Positions 173 through 35,442 of a DNA stretch of 35,442 nucleotides are shown piece by piece. Under the pieces are notes generated by a model, which was not told the origin of the DNA, did not search any database, and worked only from the letters and a program-made list of their open reading frames with translations. The stretch is taken from the IMG/VR virus record IMGVR_UViG_3300012928_000018, positions 1-35,442 of that record; one strand, 5' to 3'. Both the position numbers and the translations under genes were made by a program. The stretch is from a virus. The first letter of the stretch is position 1. The number at the start of each line of letters is the position of its first letter.

Positions 173-451
173 ATGAAGGAATTATATACTTCTGAAATGA
201 TTCAACTGAAGAGGCTTCTGGCTGTCAGGATCAGGACAGAACTTGAAAAGCAAAACAGGAGCATTCACCAGCTTGCGTTTGACCTTCGCGTCAGCAGCGC
301 GACACTTTACAGATATCTTGATCAGGAAAAGTTCTCGCCGAAGAAATCACCATCTGTCGAATACCTTTTGAAGATACTTATCGCCGTGTCTCCTAAGTTT
401 GACGCACACCTCTCAGGTAGTAACCAGATTTTCACAACCACCATCCAGTAA
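173..451 (+). CDS. Small helix-turn-helix DNA-binding protein
   Basis: A 92-residue basic protein. Residues 30-50 (IHQLAFDLRVSSATLYRYLD) have the form of a helix-turn-helix: a helix, the turn LRVSS, and a recognition helix. It is therefore probably a transcriptional regulator. It lies 18 bp before the membrane-protein gene on the same strand and may regulate the accessory island, or the divergent replication operon beyond the repeat. The ATG has only a weak GGTGG ribosome binding site. It does not closely resemble CI, Cro or Cox that I recognise. Family assignment is by motif only. Confidence 0.7.
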   Translation: MKELYTSEMIQLKRLLAVRIRTELEKQNRSIHQLAFDLRVSSATLYRYLDQEKFSPKKSPSVEYLLKILIAVSPKFDAHLSGSNQIFTTTIQ

Positions 452-468
452 CAAAGGAGGAAAGAGCC

Positions 469-1794
469 ATGGCCATGAGTAAAGAAGAAAAAGCTCGCCG
501 CAGAAAAGCTCTAAAGACAATTGCTGACAAGCTCGGCGTTAAGGTTTCAGAACTGACAGATTCTGATAAAGCACAAGCTATCAATAGTAATACCGCCAAG
601 CCGAAATTTGGAAGTAAAAAAGAAATCAGAAAATCCTCTTCCACTCAAAAAGCAACCAGACCCAGAGCCAAAAACGAAAAAGTTAAAACCGACGGAACAA
701 AAAAACCTACGGCTACTAAACCACCCGCTCCAGTGGAAATGAAGGCTCCGGTTCTCGCAAAACCTGAAATAACAAAACCGGCGGCTATTAAACCTCCGGC
801 TCCGATCGCTTTTAAAAAGCAGGGCCAGCCCGCCGCCCCTGCTAAAAGTGACGGGACTGGGAAATCCACCCAAATCAGAATGGACTGGCTCTATAGTACA
901 CTCGCCAGTGTACTTGCAGTAATGAAAAAATTTTTCGCCCTCGCCGCAAAAACAACCCACCAAGCGGCGGTAAAATCCAAATACCCCACCGGCTTTATTT
1001 ATCTTGTCGGTTTGGCGGCTTTTCCGCTTTCAGTCATGATGCTCCTCATGACTCAGGAGCGCCTGAAAGAAACCGGCGAACACTTCCCCCTCACGTTCGC
1101 AACAGGCATGGAAGTGTTTATGTATGTGTGCGCGATTTTACCCATCGTTTTCACCGGATTTAAAAAATTCCGTGCTCAGTTTCTAATCCTTCTTCCTCTC
1201 AGTTTTTATGCCCTAGTCTTTTTCGATCATCCAGTCACTCTTCTCTGGTCAAAGGTAAGTCCCTTAATAAATGCCGACATCACTCAGGAAGTTAAAGACA
1301 AAAACCAAAAACTTTTAGATAACGATGTTAAATATCAGGCTGCTCTCACTGAAATCAAGAAATTAGAAGATGCTATTGATAATTTAAGGATCAAAGCCGT
1401 CCCTCATCAGGTTGACCTTGAAAGATACACGCTCAACAAATGGGTCTTAGCTCCTGTCCTAAAAAAACTAAGACCCATTGAAACACAAATTGAGAACGCC
1501 ACAAACAAATTAAATGAATTTAAGGATATAAAATCTGAGAAAGAGAATTCTTACAGCACTCCCAAGAATGTTGTCTATACCGACTGGATGGCAATAACAC
1601 AAATCTCTTACAACGCCTTAAAACAAGACATAAAACCATTTTTTATGACATTGATCACAGCATTTCTGCTTCATCTTTTTTTCTACCTGCTCACATCGCC
1701 TCCCCAACAGGCTAAAGCATGTGAACTCTCAATTATCCACGGAGGATTAAGCAGAAAGAAAAAAGATGATCCTTTCGCCAGTGTTGAACCATGA
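469..1794 (+). CDS. Four-TM membrane protein with Pro/Ala/Lys-rich cytoplasmic arm and coiled coil
   Basis: 441 residues, family not recognised. Residues 18-39 carry the motif KLGVKVSELTDSDK, closely matched at the N-terminus of the following Uma2 nuclease. Residues 60-125 are a Lys/Pro/Ala-rich linker. Hydrophobic segments lie near 174-195, 214-231, 235-253 and 388-409. A charged region at 265-360, between TM3 and TM4, looks coiled-coil. The start is supported by GGAGG eight bases upstream. The topology resembles a sensor or anchoring protein with a long loop on one side. With the downstream nuclease it may form a two-gene membrane/nuclease module, for example for superinfection exclusion; that role is inference. 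Confidence 0.8.
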   Translation: MAMSKEEKARRRKALKTIADKLGVKVSELTDSDKAQAINSNTAKPKFGSKKEIRKSSSTQKATRPRAKNEKVKTDGTKKPTATKPPAPVEMKAPVLAKPEITKPAAIKPPAPIAFKKQGQPAAPAKSDGTGKSTQIRMDWLYSTLASVLAVMKKFFALAAKTTHQAAVKSKYPTGFIYLVGLAAFPLSVMMLLMTQERLKETGEHFPLTFATGMEVFMYVCAILPIVFTGFKKFRAQFLILLPLSFYALVFFDHPVTLLWSKVSPLINADITQEVKDKNQKLLDNDVKYQAALTEIKKLEDAIDNLRIKAVPHQVDLERYTLNKWVLAPVLKKLRPIETQIENATNKLNEFKDIKSEKENSYSTPKNVVYTDWMAITQISYNALKQDIKPFFMTLITAFLLHLFFYLLTSPPQQAKACELSIIHGGLSRKKKDDPFASVEP

Positions 1795-1866
1795 ACTACA
1801 CACAGACTGTTTTTCAATCAAGTTCAACAAAGCCCTGAGCGGCACAATCGACTAGAGGTGATCTAT

Positions 1867-2853
1867 ATGGCTCTGTCTTATGAAAGAAAAAAGGAAGTAA
1901 AGTTAGCCAGATCTCTTTTTGCTCAAAAAATTGGCGTGGAGCTAAGTAACTTGACGCAAGAGCAAAAAAAAGAAGCTCTTAAACTATTCGATGATAGCAA
2001 ACTAAACAAAGAGAAGATTCCAACCATGGAACTAACAACAAAGCAAAAAAACAATATTATTTCAAATACTAAGAGAAAGTCTCTGGCTTTTTTCTGCAAA
2101 GAATCAGGATTTAAAAAATCAATGGCAGATCTGAGCGAACCAGAGAAAGCCACCTTCAATAAAAAATACCTTTCTCCCGCCCTCCAAAAGATTGCAGAGT
2201 CATACGATGACCCGAATCTTAAAGCTTTCATACTCAATAAACTTACCCAATTATCTACAGCAAAGGTTCCATCAACCATGAAAACTTCACCTAAACAATA
2301 CACTTCTGATGATTTCGAGAAAATGGATCAGGAAAACAGATCCGAGCTTATAAACGGCGAAATCTTTATGATGAGCCCTGCTTCCATTCAACACTCAGTA
2401 ACCCAGAGTAACCTCCTGAAAACCCTGAGCCTTAATTATAATTCCGTCTCTCCCAAAGGAGGGGAGCCATCCGGATGGACATTCATCGTTGAAGCGTGGA
2501 CCAGATACGATAATAAATCATCAATGGTCCATGATATCGCCGCTTTTGAGTCATCCGGGCTAACAATCCCCGAAAAAGGGCCTCTCAGGATCAGGCCCCG
2601 GTGGGTATGTGAAATACTCTCACCTTCTAACTGGTCGCATGACACAAATACCAAACGGTTTGCGCTGGAGGAGCACGGTATACCATGGTACTGGATAGTT
2701 GATCCGATCAGAAAAGGAATTCATGTCTATCATCTTAAGCATTCCGGTGAACACTATCAGATTATTCAGGCACCTGATGAAAACTCCGGCTCTGTATGCC
2801 TTCCCCCATTTCCTGAGCTTGAAATTAATATGAAAGATATTTTTTCCCCTTAA
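1867..2853 (+). CDS. Uma2-family (DUF820) PD-(D/E)XK endonuclease with extra N-terminal region
   Basis: 328 residues. The C-terminal half (about 140-325) has the Uma2 signature: RSELINGEIFMMSPAS, an Asp at VHD223, E249 in CEILSPS, K263 in TNTKR, and GIPWYWIVDP. The catalytic D, E and K all appear intact, so it is probably an active nuclease. Its natural substrate is unknown, as for most Uma2 proteins. The first 140 residues are an added lysine-rich region. It carries KIGVELSNLTQEQKKEAL, like the upstream membrane protein, and a weaker second copy at 75-99. I chose the ATG at 1867, with GAGGTG seven bases upstream, over the in-frame GTG at 1858. It is the third gene of the plus-strand island. 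Confidence 0.88.
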   Translation: MALSYERKKEVKLARSLFAQKIGVELSNLTQEQKKEALKLFDDSKLNKEKIPTMELTTKQKNNIISNTKRKSLAFFCKESGFKKSMADLSEPEKATFNKKYLSPALQKIAESYDDPNLKAFILNKLTQLSTAKVPSTMKTSPKQYTSDDFEKMDQENRSELINGEIFMMSPASIQHSVTQSNLLKTLSLNYNSVSPKGGEPSGWTFIVEAWTRYDNKSSMVHDIAAFESSGLTIPEKGPLRIRPRWVCEILSPSNWSHDTNTKRFALEEHGIPWYWIVDPIRKGIHVYHLKHSGEHYQIIQAPDENSGSVCLPPFPELEINMKDIFSP

Positions 2854-3260: not shown

Positions 3261-3434
3261 ATGGATCTTCAGCAGATTATTGAGTGGCTTATTGCGCTTT
3301 CAGTAATTCTTTACCTCGGCATCATGGCAGGGAGATATACAGGTTATACCTTTTTCGGCAAAGAGCTTAAGGACCCTCTTCTTGATCCGTTAATCAGATA
3401 CCTGAAAAAGGAGAAAAAATGCCAGAAGAAATAA
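3261..3434 (+). CDS. 57-aa single-TM peptide
   Basis: A 57-residue protein starting MDLQQIIEWLIALSVIL, with one hydrophobic segment at about residues 8-25 and a basic C-terminus (LKKEKKCQKK). The start is supported by AGAGGGGG ten bases upstream. Its end overlaps the next small gene by 16 nt, so the pair is probably co-translated. It lies on the opposite strand to, and convergent with, the lysis end of the late operon. Size and topology fit a holin-like, antiholin or spanin-like peptide, but no family is recognised. Confidence 0.6.
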   Translation: MDLQQIIEWLIALSVILYLGIMAGRYTGYTFFGKELKDPLLDPLIRYLKKEKKCQKK

Positions 3435-3565
3435 CCATTACATACTCAGAACTATTATTTTCATACTTATACCTTGTCTTTGTAGGATACATTTTTCATT
3501 TATTTTACAAATACCAGGACAAAATTATCACTTCATTTCTTAGAAAAATACTAAAATCAGATTAG
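3419..3565 (+). CDS. 48-aa single-TM peptide
   Basis: 48 residues starting MPEEITITYSELLFSYLYLV, with an aromatic-rich hydrophobic segment at about 10-28 and a basic tail (FLRKILKSD). It starts inside the preceding small gene after the purine-rich sequence GGAGAAAAA. Its stop overlaps the stop of the minus-strand membrane gene by two bases (3563-3564). It probably works with its neighbour as a membrane pair, possibly in lysis or lysis timing. No homolog recognised. Confidence 0.55.
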   Translation: MPEEITITYSELLFSYLYLVFVGYIFHLFYKYQDKIITSFLRKILKSD

Positions 3566-4696: not shown

Positions 4697-4908
4697 TTCC
4701 CCCTGATCTCCCTGCTCTTTTCCCAATCATTCAGATCAACACCACAGATTTCTCTTACAAGATCCTCCTTTTCCTGCCTCTCCTTTTTTCCACCCTCCAG
4801 ACTTACCCATGTGAAAAGAAAATATGCTGACATAAAAAGAACAAACATTATCACATGTTCTTTTTCTGCCCGGAACATATCCTTCCACCAGACTTCCTTT
4901 TTACCCAT
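4693..4908 (-). CDS. 71-aa single-TM protein between patatin and endolysin
   Basis: 71 residues: a basic N-terminus, a TM segment at about 18-36 (HVIMFVLFMSAYFLFTWVSL), then a highly charged helical tail. It overlaps the patatin gene by 8 nt upstream and the endolysin by 4 nt downstream. AGGGGG precedes the start. The topology fits an inner-membrane spanin (Rz-like) or a small holin. The charged C-terminal helix favours the spanin reading slightly. No family signature. Confidence 0.65.
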   Translation of the reverse strand: MGKKEVWWKDMFRAEKEHVIMFVLFMSAYFLFTWVSLEGGKKERQEKEDLVREICGVDLNDWEKSREIRGK

Positions 4909-5959
4909 TCCAGTACCCCCTGAAATAAGATCTGTAGTCCTTTTCTAAAAGCTCCGACTTTTTCTCAGCAAAGTATTTCAGATACTCAAACTGGCCCACG
5001 TCATCGAGTGATATTTCCCGGTCAAGCTGGTAATTTACATACTCAACATGGTTACTAAGCTCCCCGAACATATCCCGGGTGGTCTCAAGAGACCTCACCT
5101 CTGTCTCCTGCACAATGGTCCCCAGAGTCATTTTTGCTGTCCACCTAAAACGCCTGTAACAGGCACCGAGAAATCCACCCATGTACTCTTTAGGACTCTG
5201 AAAGGTCCACAGGCCACCATTACCTACACCCAGAACTCTCATATCCGCAAATCTGACAGACCCCGAAGGGTATTTCCCCATAACCTCTTTAGTTCCACAA
5301 TGAGCCCTTCTGGCAAGCCTTACAGCCGAAACCATCCCGAGGTTATCCGCCTGCCCCCCGTCGGTGAAGTTGAATGTTTTCTCTTTATGATCCCCGTTTC
5401 TCGTCTGATATTTGAGAGTCGGCATATACTTCTGGAAAGCCAGTGGAGCCACGCATGAACTCGTTACAAGCTGATAAAGCGGCATCTCACCAAAGCGGGT
5501 TTCTTTCTCGCTTGGTTGTTGCAGATTTGTGATTGCGTGGCCCATGGCTCTTCTGACACCTCTGTATTTGTAATATCTGTCATAGACATTAATACAGGCA
5601 GGCTTGCAGTCTTTGAACAGAACATCTGCACCATAAACACTTTTAGCAACATCTTCTAAGTATTCCGTGTGATACTTTGCAGCAGTAAAAAGAAGTTGCA
5701 CGGTTTCAGGAATCCATTTTCTTCTCCTGAACGCATACCCCATAACCTCTTTTGCTAAATCCTCAAGATCAGATATTTTAACCGGGTCCGGCTTTATCAG
5801 CCCGGCAACCACCATAGATCCTGCTGATGTGCCGGACCACAGGCTGATATCTTCAGTCTTCAGATACCCCATATCTTCAAGTTTTTTCAGCCAGATTGCG
5901 CTGACAACAGCTCTGACCCCACCCCCTGCCACACTCAATATTTTGTATTTAGTCACCAT
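4901..5959 (-). CDS. Patatin-like phospholipase
   Basis: 352 residues with all patatin motifs: glycine-rich oxyanion loop AGGGVR (11-16), nucleophile elbow GTSAG with S45, and catalytic Asp in TDGGQADN with D200. It should hydrolyse acyl chains from phospholipids. No signal peptide, so it would act from the cytoplasmic side or after membrane breach. It overlaps the preceding 290-aa gene by 7 nt and the following TM gene, so it belongs to the late operon next to the endolysin. A lysis role (host membrane destruction) fits the context. A virion-associated or anti-competitor role is also possible. Confidence 0.9.
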   Translation of the reverse strand: MVTKYKILSVAGGGVRAVVSAIWLKKLEDMGYLKTEDISLWSGTSAGSMVVAGLIKPDPVKISDLEDLAKEVMGYAFRRRKWIPETVQLLFTAAKYHTEYLEDVAKSVYGADVLFKDCKPACINVYDRYYKYRGVRRAMGHAITNLQQPSEKETRFGEMPLYQLVTSSCVAPLAFQKYMPTLKYQTRNGDHKEKTFNFTDGGQADNLGMVSAVRLARRAHCGTKEVMGKYPSGSVRFADMRVLGVGNGGLWTFQSPKEYMGGFLGACYRRFRWTAKMTLGTIVQETEVRSLETTRDMFGELSNHVEYVNYQLDREISLDDVGQFEYLKYFAEKKSELLEKDYRSYFRGYWNG

Positions 5960-18452: not shown

Positions 18453-20284
18453 ACCTTAATACCTTTCACAACCCTGAAGCCTTCCGGATACGCAAGCTTG
18501 ATATCGTTGTAAGCACTCACTACATAACGGTTAGAGTTTGCGTCCATATCGGTGTAAGGATCTACGGAGATCTTTACATAACCCCAGATTCCTACCATGA
18601 CGTTTCTGTAGTCTCCCATGATAATCTTTCCGGTCGGAGCCTGATCAGTACCGTCATTATCGATAAGAGTTGATGCCAGATAGTCGTATCCGTTCATTCT
18701 TCCGGCTCCGTCTCTTTTTCCTTCTGTGACCAGAAAAAGACCGGAACCCGCATCCGTCTTGGTATTTTTTAAGACAGTCTCAGTTTTACTGTCAGAGAGA
18801 TACTTAACAGCCGGTGTAATCCTTATTTTCGACTGCTTCAGATCCCCTTCCATGGCAATAATCTGAGCCCTGTCTATAACTCCGTTCTTTGCATCTGTTA
18901 TCAGTTCTGGCCTGACCGATGCAAAGATGCCTTTGGGCGCATCCGGATCAGAGCCGTCACCGTTGAAGCCGTTATATTCAAGGCATTCTGCCACAGCGTT
19001 TTCCAGAACCTCCCAGATATAGGATTCCACCACGTAATCCTGTTGCATCAAAAACTGGTCAGTAACAGGAAGGACCCCTCCGCATCTGTGAGGCTTCATT
19101 TTGATATTTCCGGTACCAAGTTTGCTTTTATCAAACTTGACCCCCTCAGCTTTGTACTGAGCCCTGAAGCCTGAAATAATTTTTGGCATGGTTACATCAC
19201 CACGGAGCCCCGGGATCATCCTGACTCCCAGCTCAGAGAATATGGTTTTATGCCAGAGCTGATCTATAAACCCACGATGCTCATCGGGCACAAACTCTCG
19301 ACCATTCCCCTGAGTTTTTGACATCATGGCATCAACAGCCGAACGCTTATATTTACCTCCGGTCATGAGAACATCATTTGGAATTACGATGGCCTCACCT
19401 CTCTCCACCGCTGAATCTTCCACCCCGTAGAATTTAGCTGCCTGAGTGCTTACGTGCTTTTCAAAGCCAAATTCCTGACTCCTCCCCCCGGATCTGATGG
19501 ACTTGATAGCCCGGGAAAGTTGAAAGGACTGCACCTCATTTTCGTGCATTCCCATGAAGTCACCCACCTGATAAGGCTTTGGCTGCTGCCTCGTGGCGTT
19601 TCTCTGCCCTCTGGCTTTCACAGTGAACTCCTCATAGGGCATTCCTGACTCCACCGCCTCAGTTGTTAGCTTCTGGTCAATTTCAAACTCAGAGGCAAAC
19701 TGATGAATATTCGCAATCCTTGATCGTTCCTGCTTTCTGTAATAGTCCTCACCCACCTGCACCGTTCCGGATCGGGTTCCGGATGCCGGGATATTCTGGG
19801 GAACACCACCTCCTCCCTGAGGTTCCTGACCACCATTCTGAGGAGGCTGCTGCCCGTTTCCTCCCTGCCCGGGTTCAGGATTCCCCTGTGGTTGCTGCCC
19901 CTGATACCCCTGAGGTTGCTGCTGCCCCTGAGGAGGTTGCTGATAAACAGGCTGATTACCCTGAGGGTGCTGCTGCTGCCCCTGAGGGTGCTGCTGTCCC
20001 TGAGGCTGCTGGTTCCCCTGAGGAGGCTGCTGATAAAAGGGCTGGTTACCCTGAGGCTGAAACGCTCCCACATTCTGCACCTGCGAAGGATCACCCTGAT
20101 ACGGCTGATACCCCTGCCCGCCTCCGTTTTGCCCGGGCAACTCATGACCGTAAAACCTGCCCGCACTGCCGTTTCTGGTCTGCTTATTTACCTGCCCGGC
20201 AAACTCAGACACGGCATCACTGACCTCATTTCTGTTACCGTTTTTTGACCGTGAACCAAAAATCTTCCTGACAGAAAATCGCAT
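18449..20284 (-). CDS. HK97-fold major capsid protein with Gln/Gly/Pro-rich N-terminal segment
   Basis: 611 residues, longer than most HK97-type capsids. Residues 50-166 consist almost only of Gln, Gly, Pro and Asn, with repeats such as YQQPPQGQQQPQG. About 190-250 is charged, then 290-611 is the HK97-like shell domain (EFVPDEHRGFIDQLWHK, PVTDQFLMQQDY, MGDYRNVMVGIWG). A prohead protease gene lies upstream, so the N-terminal part (delta-domain equivalent) is probably cut off in mature heads. The ATG has AAGGAG seven bases upstream. The repeat DNA spans about 19786-20134. Confidence 0.9.
   Translation of the reverse strand: MRFSVRKIFGSRSKNGNRNEVSDAVSEFAGQVNKQTRNGSAGRFYGHELPGQNGGGQGYQPYQGDPSQVQNVGAFQPQGNQPFYQQPPQGNQQPQGQQHPQGQQQHPQGNQPVYQQPPQGQQQPQGYQGQQPQGNPEPGQGGNGQQPPQNGGQEPQGGGGVPQNIPASGTRSGTVQVGEDYYRKQERSRIANIHQFASEFEIDQKLTTEAVESGMPYEEFTVKARGQRNATRQQPKPYQVGDFMGMHENEVQSFQLSRAIKSIRSGGRSQEFGFEKHVSTQAAKFYGVEDSAVERGEAIVIPNDVLMTGGKYKRSAVDAMMSKTQGNGREFVPDEHRGFIDQLWHKTIFSELGVRMIPGLRGDVTMPKIISGFRAQYKAEGVKFDKSKLGTGNIKMKPHRCGGVLPVTDQFLMQQDYVVESYIWEVLENAVAECLEYNGFNGDGSDPDAPKGIFASVRPELITDAKNGVIDRAQIIAMEGDLKQSKIRITPAVKYLSDSKTETVLKNTKTDAGSGLFLVTEGKRDGAGRMNGYDYLASTLIDNDGTDQAPTGKIIMGDYRNVMVGIWGYVKISVDPYTDMDANSNRYVVSAYNDIKLAYPEGFRVVKGIKV
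19786..20134 (-). repeat. Imperfect tandem repeats encoding the capsid Q/G/P region
   Basis: Repeated CCTGAGG and CTGCTG units on the plus strand encode PQG/QQ motifs on the minus strand within the capsid N-terminus. Repeat length varies, so the region could expand or contract by slippage. Confidence 0.85.
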
Positions 20285-30945: not shown

Positions 30946-31152
30946 TCACCCAGCTTTGTTTTGTTGGTGATCCAGTCTTCTAGCCGCTGCTTTATATCGC
31001 GCCTCTAATTTCGTCACAGCATCACCAACAGGATAATTTTTTAGCACAGCAGATAAGGAGCTTATCAGGTGCTGGTGTCGCTCAGCTCTTTTCAAAAACT
31101 CCAGTGTGACTCTTAAATTCTGAACCTCTTCTTTTAGTTCAATTTTTTTCAT
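30946..31152 (-). CDS. Small coiled-coil protein, unknown
   Basis: 68 residues from the ATG at 31152 with GGAGGA nine bases upstream. Almost wholly helical: VQNLRVTLEFLKRAERHQHL and KLEARYKAAARRLDHQQ. It overlaps the Rep stop by 14 nt, so probably translationally coupled to Rep. May be a replication accessory factor or regulator. Confidence 0.65.
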   Translation of the reverse strand: MKKIELKEEVQNLRVTLEFLKRAERHQHLISSLSAVLKNYPVGDAVTKLEARYKAAARRLDHQQNKAG

Positions 31153-34099
31153 AATTAACACTCCTCCATGCCTTACTCAGGTTCACAAACTCCTCCTTCA
31201 CCTTTTTAAAGGACCCAAATATACAGTAATCTCCCATATTATCCTGATACTTAAATCCTAGCGCTTCGACAGCATCACGCATTGGGTAAATATTTTTATC
31301 CTGATCAGAGTTAGTCCAATTTACATAAAACCGATTCTTTTTAACTTTTTCTTCACCTTCCTTACTAATCATTGCCAATGAAATAATTTTATCAAAACCG
31401 TTTTTTTCTAACTTTTCATCACTAATATTTAGCAAATTAACAATATCAAAAATGTCTTTTACTTCTTTTTCGTTCGTACTTACAGTTTGCAATATTCCAG
31501 TCAAGTCTAATCTGCCTACGCCACCAAGACTATCAGCGTTCTTTGACAATTTGTTATCTGTATCTATACGCTTGAAAGCGTTTTCCTCAATCTCTCTTTC
31601 CTGATCTCTTATTTTTTCCCATAGTAAAATGAGATCGTCATCAGAAAGAAAACACTCATCGGAATATGATTTAATTTTTCGATTTGATTTAGAAAATTTA
31701 CAAAATTTATTTCTCAAATCTTCTTTTCTTCTGAGTAGTGCGTATAGTTTTAGGTCCAATTTTCTCTTTTCCTTCACCCCGCTATACTCAAGTGAGCCAA
31801 CTTCTGGATCAAATATTTTTTTAGCTAAAAACCACTCAAATATACAAGCACCAAGCTTTCTTGTGTAATTTACGCTTATTGTCCTGTCTTCATCTTTCCT
31901 CGCAACCCCCCTGTCCTTTCTTATCCTTCCAACCCGTATTTTTTGTGCCCTGAGGGTACTTTGCCTACTCATCAGCTCTTTAGCCTCTTCCGCATTGTAT
32001 CCAGACGGATAAAATGAACCCTTTTTGTGCTTATTTCCTACAATCTGATCTTTATCCAAAAGAACAGAGTCTCGCATTTTGTTGTAAAAGCAAGTGACAG
32101 TCTGGAAAAATACTGTGGGCTCTGCTTCCACCTCTTCATCCTCAACCTCACCAGCTTCTTTCAGAATGTGTTCAATAAACTTGGATCTGCTCTTAGACCC
32201 ATCATTATTCTCGACCATCACATAAGAGTGTTCAACCAACTTGGCTTTATACATATCAACCGCATACTGACGCATGGAATCATAAGCAAAGGAAACAACC
32301 CTCTTATCAGAATGCTTAACAAGTTCAGGCAATTCAAAGTATGAAAACCTGTGTTCAAACACTTCCTCTGCATTCATTGAGAGCCAGTCTTTACCCCTGA
32401 CCTTCCCGATTGAAGACGCAACCTCAAGACTAGCTTTGGTCAAAAGGTCATTATCAACAGCCTGAGACACTTTTGTTGCCAGCTCTGGAGAAACATCACC
32501 TTTATCTCCCGTTTTAAGTATGTATGCCACCGCTTCTTCTGCACCAAATTTGTTACATTTTAGGCAGACAGCTCCCCCCTTCAGGTTCTTTCCATCCCAG
32601 TACGGCTTTTTTACAACATCTTCACCATTAGCTATTCTCTCTTCAAGAAAATCATAGGAACCAAGATTTACCACCGCCTTTTTCACAGCTTTATTCCACT
32701 GCTCCCATATAACCCTTGAAAGCTCAAGCTCGTTCAGGTCTGAACCTGACCCCACCCAGTAATCTCTCCACACTAACGTGTGTATATGGTAGTGAATCCC
32801 CGATACCCCGAAGGTCGGTTCTGAATGTCTAAACCAACCTTCCCAGTCCAAAGCATCTTTTATTTTTCCAGCCCCTGAACGCTTCCCGCCATTGTGTAGT
32901 ATTCTGAGTGCTTCCCTTAGAAGATCCATTCCCTTTCCTGAAGCTCTGACCCCTTTCAATTCCCGGGGTATTGTCAGAGTAAGGAAGTTTACCTCCCTCC
33001 ATTTCACTCCATTTTTTCTCTTTCTCAACAGAGTGCATTTCTCACCTTTTTTAGTTTCCGTGTAAAAATTGGGTGCCAAGAAAATCCTATTGACCTTATT
33101 CAGAACCCCCATCCACTGGTTTCTATTAACCTCCCTGCAACTGATACACAGAGCATTTCCACAACCATACGACCCGTAAGTCGTTACATTTCCACCCTCA
33201 CACCCGAATCTAAGCGGGTTTTTCACAGAAGGGTACTTACAACGAAGCAGTTTATCTGCCGTGGACTCAAGAAACGAAGTCAGAGGCTGCCAGTGCCCAG
33301 CCCTGCCACTTTTCAGTCCATTAGCAATTGTCAGGCTTTGCTTAGCTCTGTGAGCCCGTCCGCGGTAGAAATTACAAGCGGTATCCGTAAGCTCAGCATC
33401 CGCCTTGGGCGCTGAGTCCCTGACCCGTGCCATGACATCACCACCAAGCCCCCGCTGGCCCCGGCTAAGTCTCTTCTGGCGTTGCAAGTAACGCTCACCA
33501 AAAGCCCGTTCCTGCTTCCTTTTTTTGCGCGGCTTTAGCCGCTTTCCGCTTTTCTGTGTATTTTCAACGCCTTTATCGGTATCTTCCCCTCTGCCGTCCG
33601 AGACCTGTGAACTTTCCTGAGCCAAAAACCCGTTCTCGATTTTCCCTTTATTTTCAACCGTGTCCGAGGCAGAGGAAATATACCTAGTCTGACGTCGGAC
33701 GTCAGAACTCCCAGCCGCAGCACCAGTGGAGCCATTTACCGCCGGCGGTGTTAAATTGACTTTGATTACAGGGCTGAGTGACGGCTTTGGATCAGGATTC
33801 GGCGGAAACGTAAAATTTATCGCCGCAGGTTTGTTGGCGGCTTTTTCAGTATTCTTAACGCTGAGTTCAGTATTCTTAACGGAAATTTCACTAAAACGCT
33901 CGGCGGGGTTGTGCGTCCGGGTATTTTGTGCATTGACGGCTGCACCAGAAAGCATGTATTTCTTGTCTCCGGAGCCTGCTTCCGGAGACTTGTTGGTTAT
34001 TGGAGATGTATGATCTTGAAAAAGATCACTCATGGCTGATAAACTCAATACTGAGATTGGGTTTCTTGCGTAGACGCACCGAGGGCGTCCAACCATCAA
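31139..34099 (-). CDS. Large HUH rolling-circle replication initiator (Rep_1-like)
   Basis: Up to 986 residues. C300, C313, C318 and C321 (CGNALCISC) resemble the zinc-like N-terminal part of pUB110-class Reps. Then FLTLTIP (372-378, motif I), HYHIH (436-440, HUH metal site), and VAYILK with the likely nucleophile Y526 and K529. It should nick one strand at the double-strand origin and stay bound through Tyr. Plasmid Reps are ~350 residues; here a 230-residue basic/disordered N-terminus and a 430-residue C-terminus are added. The start is uncertain: TTG 34099, ATG 34096 or ATG 34033, none with a good ribosome binding site. Numbering here uses 34099. Confidence 0.88.
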   Translation of the reverse strand: MMVGRPRCVYARNPISVLSLSAMSDLFQDHTSPITNKSPEAGSGDKKYMLSGAAVNAQNTRTHNPAERFSEISVKNTELSVKNTEKAANKPAAINFTFPPNPDPKPSLSPVIKVNLTPPAVNGSTGAAAGSSDVRRQTRYISSASDTVENKGKIENGFLAQESSQVSDGRGEDTDKGVENTQKSGKRLKPRKKRKQERAFGERYLQRQKRLSRGQRGLGGDVMARVRDSAPKADAELTDTACNFYRGRAHRAKQSLTIANGLKSGRAGHWQPLTSFLESTADKLLRCKYPSVKNPLRFGCEGGNVTTYGSYGCGNALCISCREVNRNQWMGVLNKVNRIFLAPNFYTETKKGEKCTLLRKRKNGVKWREVNFLTLTIPRELKGVRASGKGMDLLREALRILHNGGKRSGAGKIKDALDWEGWFRHSEPTFGVSGIHYHIHTLVWRDYWVGSGSDLNELELSRVIWEQWNKAVKKAVVNLGSYDFLEERIANGEDVVKKPYWDGKNLKGGAVCLKCNKFGAEEAVAYILKTGDKGDVSPELATKVSQAVDNDLLTKASLEVASSIGKVRGKDWLSMNAEEVFEHRFSYFELPELVKHSDKRVVSFAYDSMRQYAVDMYKAKLVEHSYVMVENNDGSKSRSKFIEHILKEAGEVEDEEVEAEPTVFFQTVTCFYNKMRDSVLLDKDQIVGNKHKKGSFYPSGYNAEEAKELMSRQSTLRAQKIRVGRIRKDRGVARKDEDRTISVNYTRKLGACIFEWFLAKKIFDPEVGSLEYSGVKEKRKLDLKLYALLRRKEDLRNKFCKFSKSNRKIKSYSDECFLSDDDLILLWEKIRDQEREIEENAFKRIDTDNKLSKNADSLGGVGRLDLTGILQTVSTNEKEVKDIFDIVNLLNISDEKLEKNGFDKIISLAMISKEGEEKVKKNRFYVNWTNSDQDKNIYPMRDAVEALGFKYQDNMGDYCIFGSFKKVKEEFVNLSKAWRSVNYEKN

Positions 34100-35392: not shown

Positions 35393-35442
35393 CCATGGGT
35401 CCGGGTCCGGCTTTTTCGTGGGTCCGGGTCCGGGTCCGGGTC
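35393..35442. repeat. Terminal copy of bases 1-50
   Basis: 50-base exact direct repeat of the window start, inside the GGGTCC array. Indicates a circular molecule or, less likely, a linear element with short direct terminal repeats. Confidence 0.9.

Follow-up and report, generated by a model that had tools for sequence, protein, structure and literature searches.

A shared N-terminal tag on a Uma2-family nuclease and an adjacent predicted membrane protein of a phage-like genome

Introduction

Uma2 proteins (PF05685, COG4636, formerly DUF820) form a family of the PD-(D/E)XK nuclease superfamily with solved structures (6okh, 9y1l, 3ot2). They are abundant in some bacteria and are listed by PADLOC as a phage-defence candidate, PDC-S03. 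They have also been discussed alongside toxin-antitoxin systems as likely solo toxins (PMC2701414). A literature search found no paper on PDC-S03, and none showing what Uma2 proteins do. SNIPE is a membrane-bound nuclease that cleaves phage DNA during injection, and those of its homologues that have no transmembrane (TM) helix often bear other membrane-targeting domains at their N-terminus (PMC13190303). Here we analyse the IMG/VR virus record IMGVR_UViG_3300012928_000018, all 35,442 nt of which constitute the window, where a Uma2-family nuclease and the membrane protein encoded next to it start with a similar short segment, called hereafter the tag. The nuclease itself is of a known Uma2 type; the novelty lies in the tag, in its occurrence on two adjacent proteins, and in the membrane protein as a partner.

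Results

The two clear copies of the tag are located as follows.

469 to 582, plus strand: tag copy A, residues 1-38 of the membrane protein, identical to copy B at 14 of 38 positions
1867 to 1980, plus strand: tag copy B, residues 1-38 of the Uma2 nuclease, defined by the alignment and by a model with helix 5-22, a loop and helix 31-41

The tags, MAMSKEEKARRRKALKTIADKLGVKVSELTDSDKAQAI and MALSYERKKEVKLARSLFAQKIGVELSNLTQEQKKEAL, align from Met1 without a gap, with a BLOSUM62 score of 68. Shuffled sequences of preserved composition scored 25.3 on average (standard deviation 4.8), and a Gumbel fit gave p values of about 6e-6 when the 60-aa ends were compared and of about 1e-3 when the proteins were taken at full length. 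As an empirical null, 4895 open reading frames (ORFs) from 108 other loci were scored; none reached 68, the best attaining 46. When the six frames of the record were searched by HMMER with the Uma2 N-terminus, only this N-terminus itself and that of the membrane protein were retrieved (E 0.0012). Given these three results, and since shuffling preserves composition, the likeness of the tags is due neither to chance nor to lysine-rich composition. The first-pass annotation, which had noticed a common motif at the same distance from both starts and had named a random lysine-rich helix as a finding that would overturn it, was thus borne out on this point. The alignment indicates that the tags at the two N-termini are homologous. 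At the DNA level 55 of 114 positions are identical over the aligned codons, so that the copies either separated long ago or arrived separately.

The equal spacing holds with the nuclease starting at ATG 1867. The listed ORF opens at GTG 1858, but ATG 1867 is the likelier start, because it is directly preceded by a Shine-Dalgarno-like AGAGGTGA. All nuclease residues are numbered from this ATG.

The tags are small, basic and helical, each followed by a flexible or helical extension, and both are predicted to lie in the cytosol. No significant match to the tag was present in Pfam, NCBIfam or PDB sequences, in agreement with the initial view that it had not been described. Its pattern LxxIAxxLGVxVxxL may resemble the last helices of XRE-type domains.

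A third, weaker copy had also been proposed within the nuclease.

2026 to 2160, plus strand: possible diverged third tag copy, nuclease residues ~54-98, with sequence p values of 0.007-0.7 depending on the method and a helix-loop-helix in the model

By sequence this copy is weak. Pairwise p values over a wide region were not significant (0.28 and 0.54); they ranged from 0.01 to 0.68 over a narrower region picked after the fact, and were marginal against a two-row profile (0.007-0.03). The predicted layout agrees better with a copy. An AlphaFold2 model of Uma2 residues 1-140, built on two sequences with a predicted local distance difference test score (pLDDT) of 76, places helix 5-22, a loop and helix 31-41 in the first unit, and a similar pair, helices 58-80 and 91-112, in the third-copy region, where the connecting loop makes one short helical turn. 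A third copy is thus suggested, and we treat it as possible. Foldseek, run with the 140-residue model, in which the tag part itself was barely covered, matched nothing up to an E of 0.001. VIA-align gave Z values up to 5.8 against designed helical repeats, mostly over residues 54-136, so that the tag was hardly tested. Modelling the full-length nuclease from its sequence alone gave low confidence (pLDDT 36), and that model was set aside.

The tag of the nuclease opens an extension of about 140 residues ahead of the Uma2 domain.

1867 to 2853, plus strand: Uma2-family nuclease gene, 328 aa
2308 to 2832, plus strand: Uma2 domain, residues ~148-322, matched by Pfam PF05685, PADLOC PDC-S03 and PDB 6okh

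The domain matches PF05685 at 1.2e-24 (87.1 bits for a curated cut-off of 27) over positions 2-171 of the 172 in the profile, PDC-S03 at 1.4e-26 (positions 4-187 of 188) and 6okh at 1e-14. Residues E160, G164, H176, D223, P244, E249, S252, W276 and P280, which are invariant in nine aligned members, are all present; we take D223 and E249 to be the catalytic residues of the PD-(D/E)XK core. The closest subtype is that with P-x-WVCE-[IV]-LSPS. By these matches, which confirm the first identification, the protein is a Uma2 nuclease with an ordinary domain.

The membrane protein has the following parts.

469 to 1794, plus strand: membrane protein, 441 aa, four predicted TM helices, no detected family
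583 to 993, plus strand: K/P/A-rich linker, residues 39-175 (137 residues), cytosolic and probably disordered by its composition
994 to 1224, plus strand: three TM helices predicted by Kyte-Doolittle, residues 176-194, 210-228 and 234-252
1225 to 1638, plus strand: charged, helix-like loop of 138 residues (253-390) between TM3 and TM4, predicted periplasmic
1639 to 1695, plus strand: fourth predicted TM helix, residues 391-409 (Kyte-Doolittle 2.0)

Over residues 41-175 the linker contains 29 K/R, 7 D/E, 15 P and 21 A. The TM helices were called from 19-residue Kyte-Doolittle windows above 1.6. From hydropathy and charge only, both termini are predicted inside and the 138-residue loop outside; this placement follows from the positive flanks, KKFR between TM2 and TM3 and RKKK near the C-terminus. 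The initial description as a membrane protein is consistent with these four helices and a tagged N-terminus predicted in the cytosol. Searches of Pfam, NCBIfam, PADLOC and PDB gave nothing significant for this protein. In PHROG a single weak match (8.8e-5) covers the K/P/A-rich linker and is probably compositional. DUF4407 (PF14362) was considered and dropped, as no PF14362 match was found in the window at E up to 10. The resemblance is one of layout only, the family having N-terminal TM helices, a long helical loop and a C-terminal TM helix.

Upstream of the membrane protein gene lies a third gene of the same strand.

173 to 451, plus strand: small helix-turn-helix (HTH)-like protein, 92 aa, with weak Pfam and PHROG matches

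The order is thus HTH (173-451), membrane protein (469-1794) and Uma2 (1867-2853), with gaps of 17 bp and 72 bp. A three-gene cassette had been proposed, and its order, common strand and short gaps stand, whereas the HTH assignment is weak: the Pfam matches, HTH_Tnp_1_2 (4e-4) and HTH_3 (0.005), are both under the curated cut-offs, and PHROG gave a regulator match at 0.0012. The 92-aa protein is a probable regulator and the first gene of the cassette. The cassette has the primase gene on one side and the end of the late genes on the other, and both of these are encoded on the other strand. Downstream on its own strand, two small proteins (3261-3434 and 3420-3564, plus) have one TM-like stretch apiece and are possibly holin-like.

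A tagged pair was looked for elsewhere. The collection scans rest on short exact peptides and are sensitive to close relatives only. Scans with 8-mers found no relative of the membrane protein in viral or in genome contigs, and none of the Uma2 protein in viral contigs; the tag alignment had no match in viral contigs, and two Uma2 alignments found one and three loci there. The scan of genome contigs for Uma2 relatives yielded 542 confirmed ones, of which the best 80 were kept and joined with the four viral loci in a scripted comparison set of 84 loci (L009-L092). At 83 of these, 93 Uma2 reading frames were found (median 205 aa). None of the 93 carried the tag (best score 35, versus 68 for our pair), and no neighbour at any locus of this set resembled the membrane half of the membrane protein. 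The proposed search for Uma2 genes beside similar membrane genes therefore came out negative, as far as close relatives reach. Absence of the gene pair from other genomes, the second outcome that the first-pass annotation had named as refuting, thus stands to the extent of the collections searched. In 17 of the 93 frames, all without the tag, the frame was open for at least 60 residues ahead of the domain, counted from the first possible start, so that N-terminal extensions of other kinds may occur among Uma2 proteins. At four loci (L041, L089, L082 and L036), from Myxococcota-type genomes, the Uma2 domain ends very long open frames (450-1455 aa), which are either fusions or just open frames in GC-rich DNA.

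Searches of phages and plasmids by tblastn found nothing for the membrane protein and distant Uma2 domains only for the Uma2 protein; its first 140 residues found nothing in phages. A further search covered fewer than 2,000 genomes in all: against 395, 398 and 379 genomes of three phyla, the membrane protein had one weak match (5.6e-5, residues 45-227), probably due to the K/P/A-rich linker, and the Uma2 N-terminus had none against 297 and 299 genomes.

The record encodes a terminase, whose best identity to anything found is about 28%, a portal, a major head protein, a sheath, a tape measure, baseplate and hub proteins, an integrase and a Toprim primase. Because of these head and tail genes, the integrase and the primase, it looks like a temperate myophage. 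Its ends (1-50 and 35393-35442) are identical over 50 bp, which makes a circular genome of 35,392 bp probable, although this overlap falls within a GGGTCC hexamer array reaching to ~82; a scan for this array returned none of the viral contigs. One motif recurs along the genome.

4157, 7809, 11826, 17944, 24431, 27546, 27826, 28540 and 28576, in both orientations near 27.5-28.6 kb: nine copies of AAGCAGCAGGGAARAAA

Copies were counted with up to 2 mismatches, for a chance expectation of 0.03. Several sit directly upstream of late genes, and the motif may serve the phage as an operator or activator site. None of the nine lies inside the cassette, which together with its orientation against the late genes fits independent expression. 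A scan of viral contigs with the 18-nt motif found 13 contigs with one match in each.

Three other observations were made. A 986-aa protein (31139-34099, minus) has an HYHIH motif and, at 0.0044, weakly matches an IS91-type zinc-binding profile; it is a possible HUH rolling-circle initiator. A patatin-like phospholipase (4901-5959, minus) lies amid the late genes and also matches PADLOC phospholipase effector profiles (3.6e-15). Imperfect 69-nt direct repeats occur at 19901-20059, within the major head protein gene.

Discussion

We tentatively propose that the three genes form an accessory ("moron") operon of a temperate phage, in which the tags dock the nuclease at the membrane to act on entering DNA. 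The first gene would supply a small HTH regulator, the second an inner-membrane protein that spans the membrane four times and extends a long N-terminal arm into the cytosol, and the third a Uma2 nuclease located in the cytosol. The helix-loop-helix tags would serve as docking domains, binding one another or one common partner, as the first-pass annotation had suggested, and would hold the nuclease at the membrane, a role with which the predicted cytosolic location of both tags fits. In a lysogen, the likeliest role would be to cut foreign DNA, of another phage or a plasmid, on entry; the periplasmic loop could act as a sensor and the HTH protein as a repressor of the cassette. We infer docking, membrane recruitment, repression and defence or superinfection exclusion from the arrangement of the parts. 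A joint role of the tagged proteins is favoured by the fact that the sole two clear tag copies of the record sit in adjacent, co-directional genes. The PDC-S03 match and the kept acidic residues of the domain would count for the proposal, and SNIPE may be seen as a precedent for a membrane-held nuclease cutting DNA at entry. A more specific version, a two-component exclusion system in which a docking domain outside any described family brings Uma2 to a four-TM sensor, as a split functional counterpart of SNIPE, appears rather improbable.

Several points weigh against the docking proposal. No second genome with the tagged pair was found in the collections searched, where close relatives only are detected, so that this absence is weak evidence; it also means that a functional unit has no support from conserved linkage. 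The assignment of the HTH gene is weak, and binding, nuclease activity and defence are all things that we infer. Moreover, Uma2 proteins are very common, most of them lack a known role, and they have been considered likely solo toxins (PMC2701414).

About as likely as docking is that the tag is a small domain copied between the two genes, or into them from a third. In either protein it would bind a nucleic acid or some protein of host or phage without regard to the other, and the two genes would have separate accessory functions. A small, basic, helical domain could have been shuffled in this way, and 72 bp separate the two genes; the adjacency and common direction of the only clear copies in the genome speak the other way. 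A toxin-antitoxin-like or growth-control unit, with a toxic Uma2 restrained by the HTH protein, the membrane protein or both (for example by membrane sequestration) and released upon phage loss, is an unlikely explanation. The HTH gene, weak as its assignment is, heads the cassette; a type II system has its antitoxin gene next to the toxin gene, and here the membrane gene separates the HTH gene from Uma2. The solo-toxin discussion of COG4636 agrees with a toxic nuclease, but a four-TM antitoxin of 441 aa would be unusual. Host take-over, in which the nuclease would break down host DNA during lytic growth with the membrane protein positioning it, had been suggested by the first-pass annotation and accords with a nuclease gene being carried by a phage genome; it is very improbable, as the cassette has an HTH gene of its own, runs against the late genes and lacks AAGCAGCAGGGAARAAA, which is a better fit to lysogenic expression. 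Convergence of two lysine-rich helical N-termini is the least credible reading, for although the tag has just 38 residues and the DNA identity is low, the shuffles, the ORF null and the ungapped alignment in the same register from Met1 argue for common origin. A role of the tag in capsid packaging was set aside by reasoning only, the cassette being outside the late operon and a four-TM protein an unlikely capsid cargo.

Compared with known systems, the nuclease shares its domain and invariant residues with the Uma2 family and, unlike the other Uma2 frames compared, has the tagged N-terminal extension of about 140 residues. The PDC-S03 profile matches its domain; unlike the present pair, the models of PDC-S03 are confined to the Uma2 domain and include no membrane partner. 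SNIPE is alike in the proposed mode of action only, that of a nuclease held at the inner membrane and cutting entering DNA. It is a single protein, with DUF4041 and a GIY-YIG nuclease; Pfam finds neither domain in any protein of the cassette at E up to 0.1, and the nuclease encoded here is a Uma2 protein distinct from the four-TM protein. A tag common to a phage Uma2 protein and the membrane protein encoded beside it offers a concrete hypothesis about the place at which a nuclease of this kind may act, and, if the docking proposal were true, a split membrane-nuclease design would stand alongside SNIPE.
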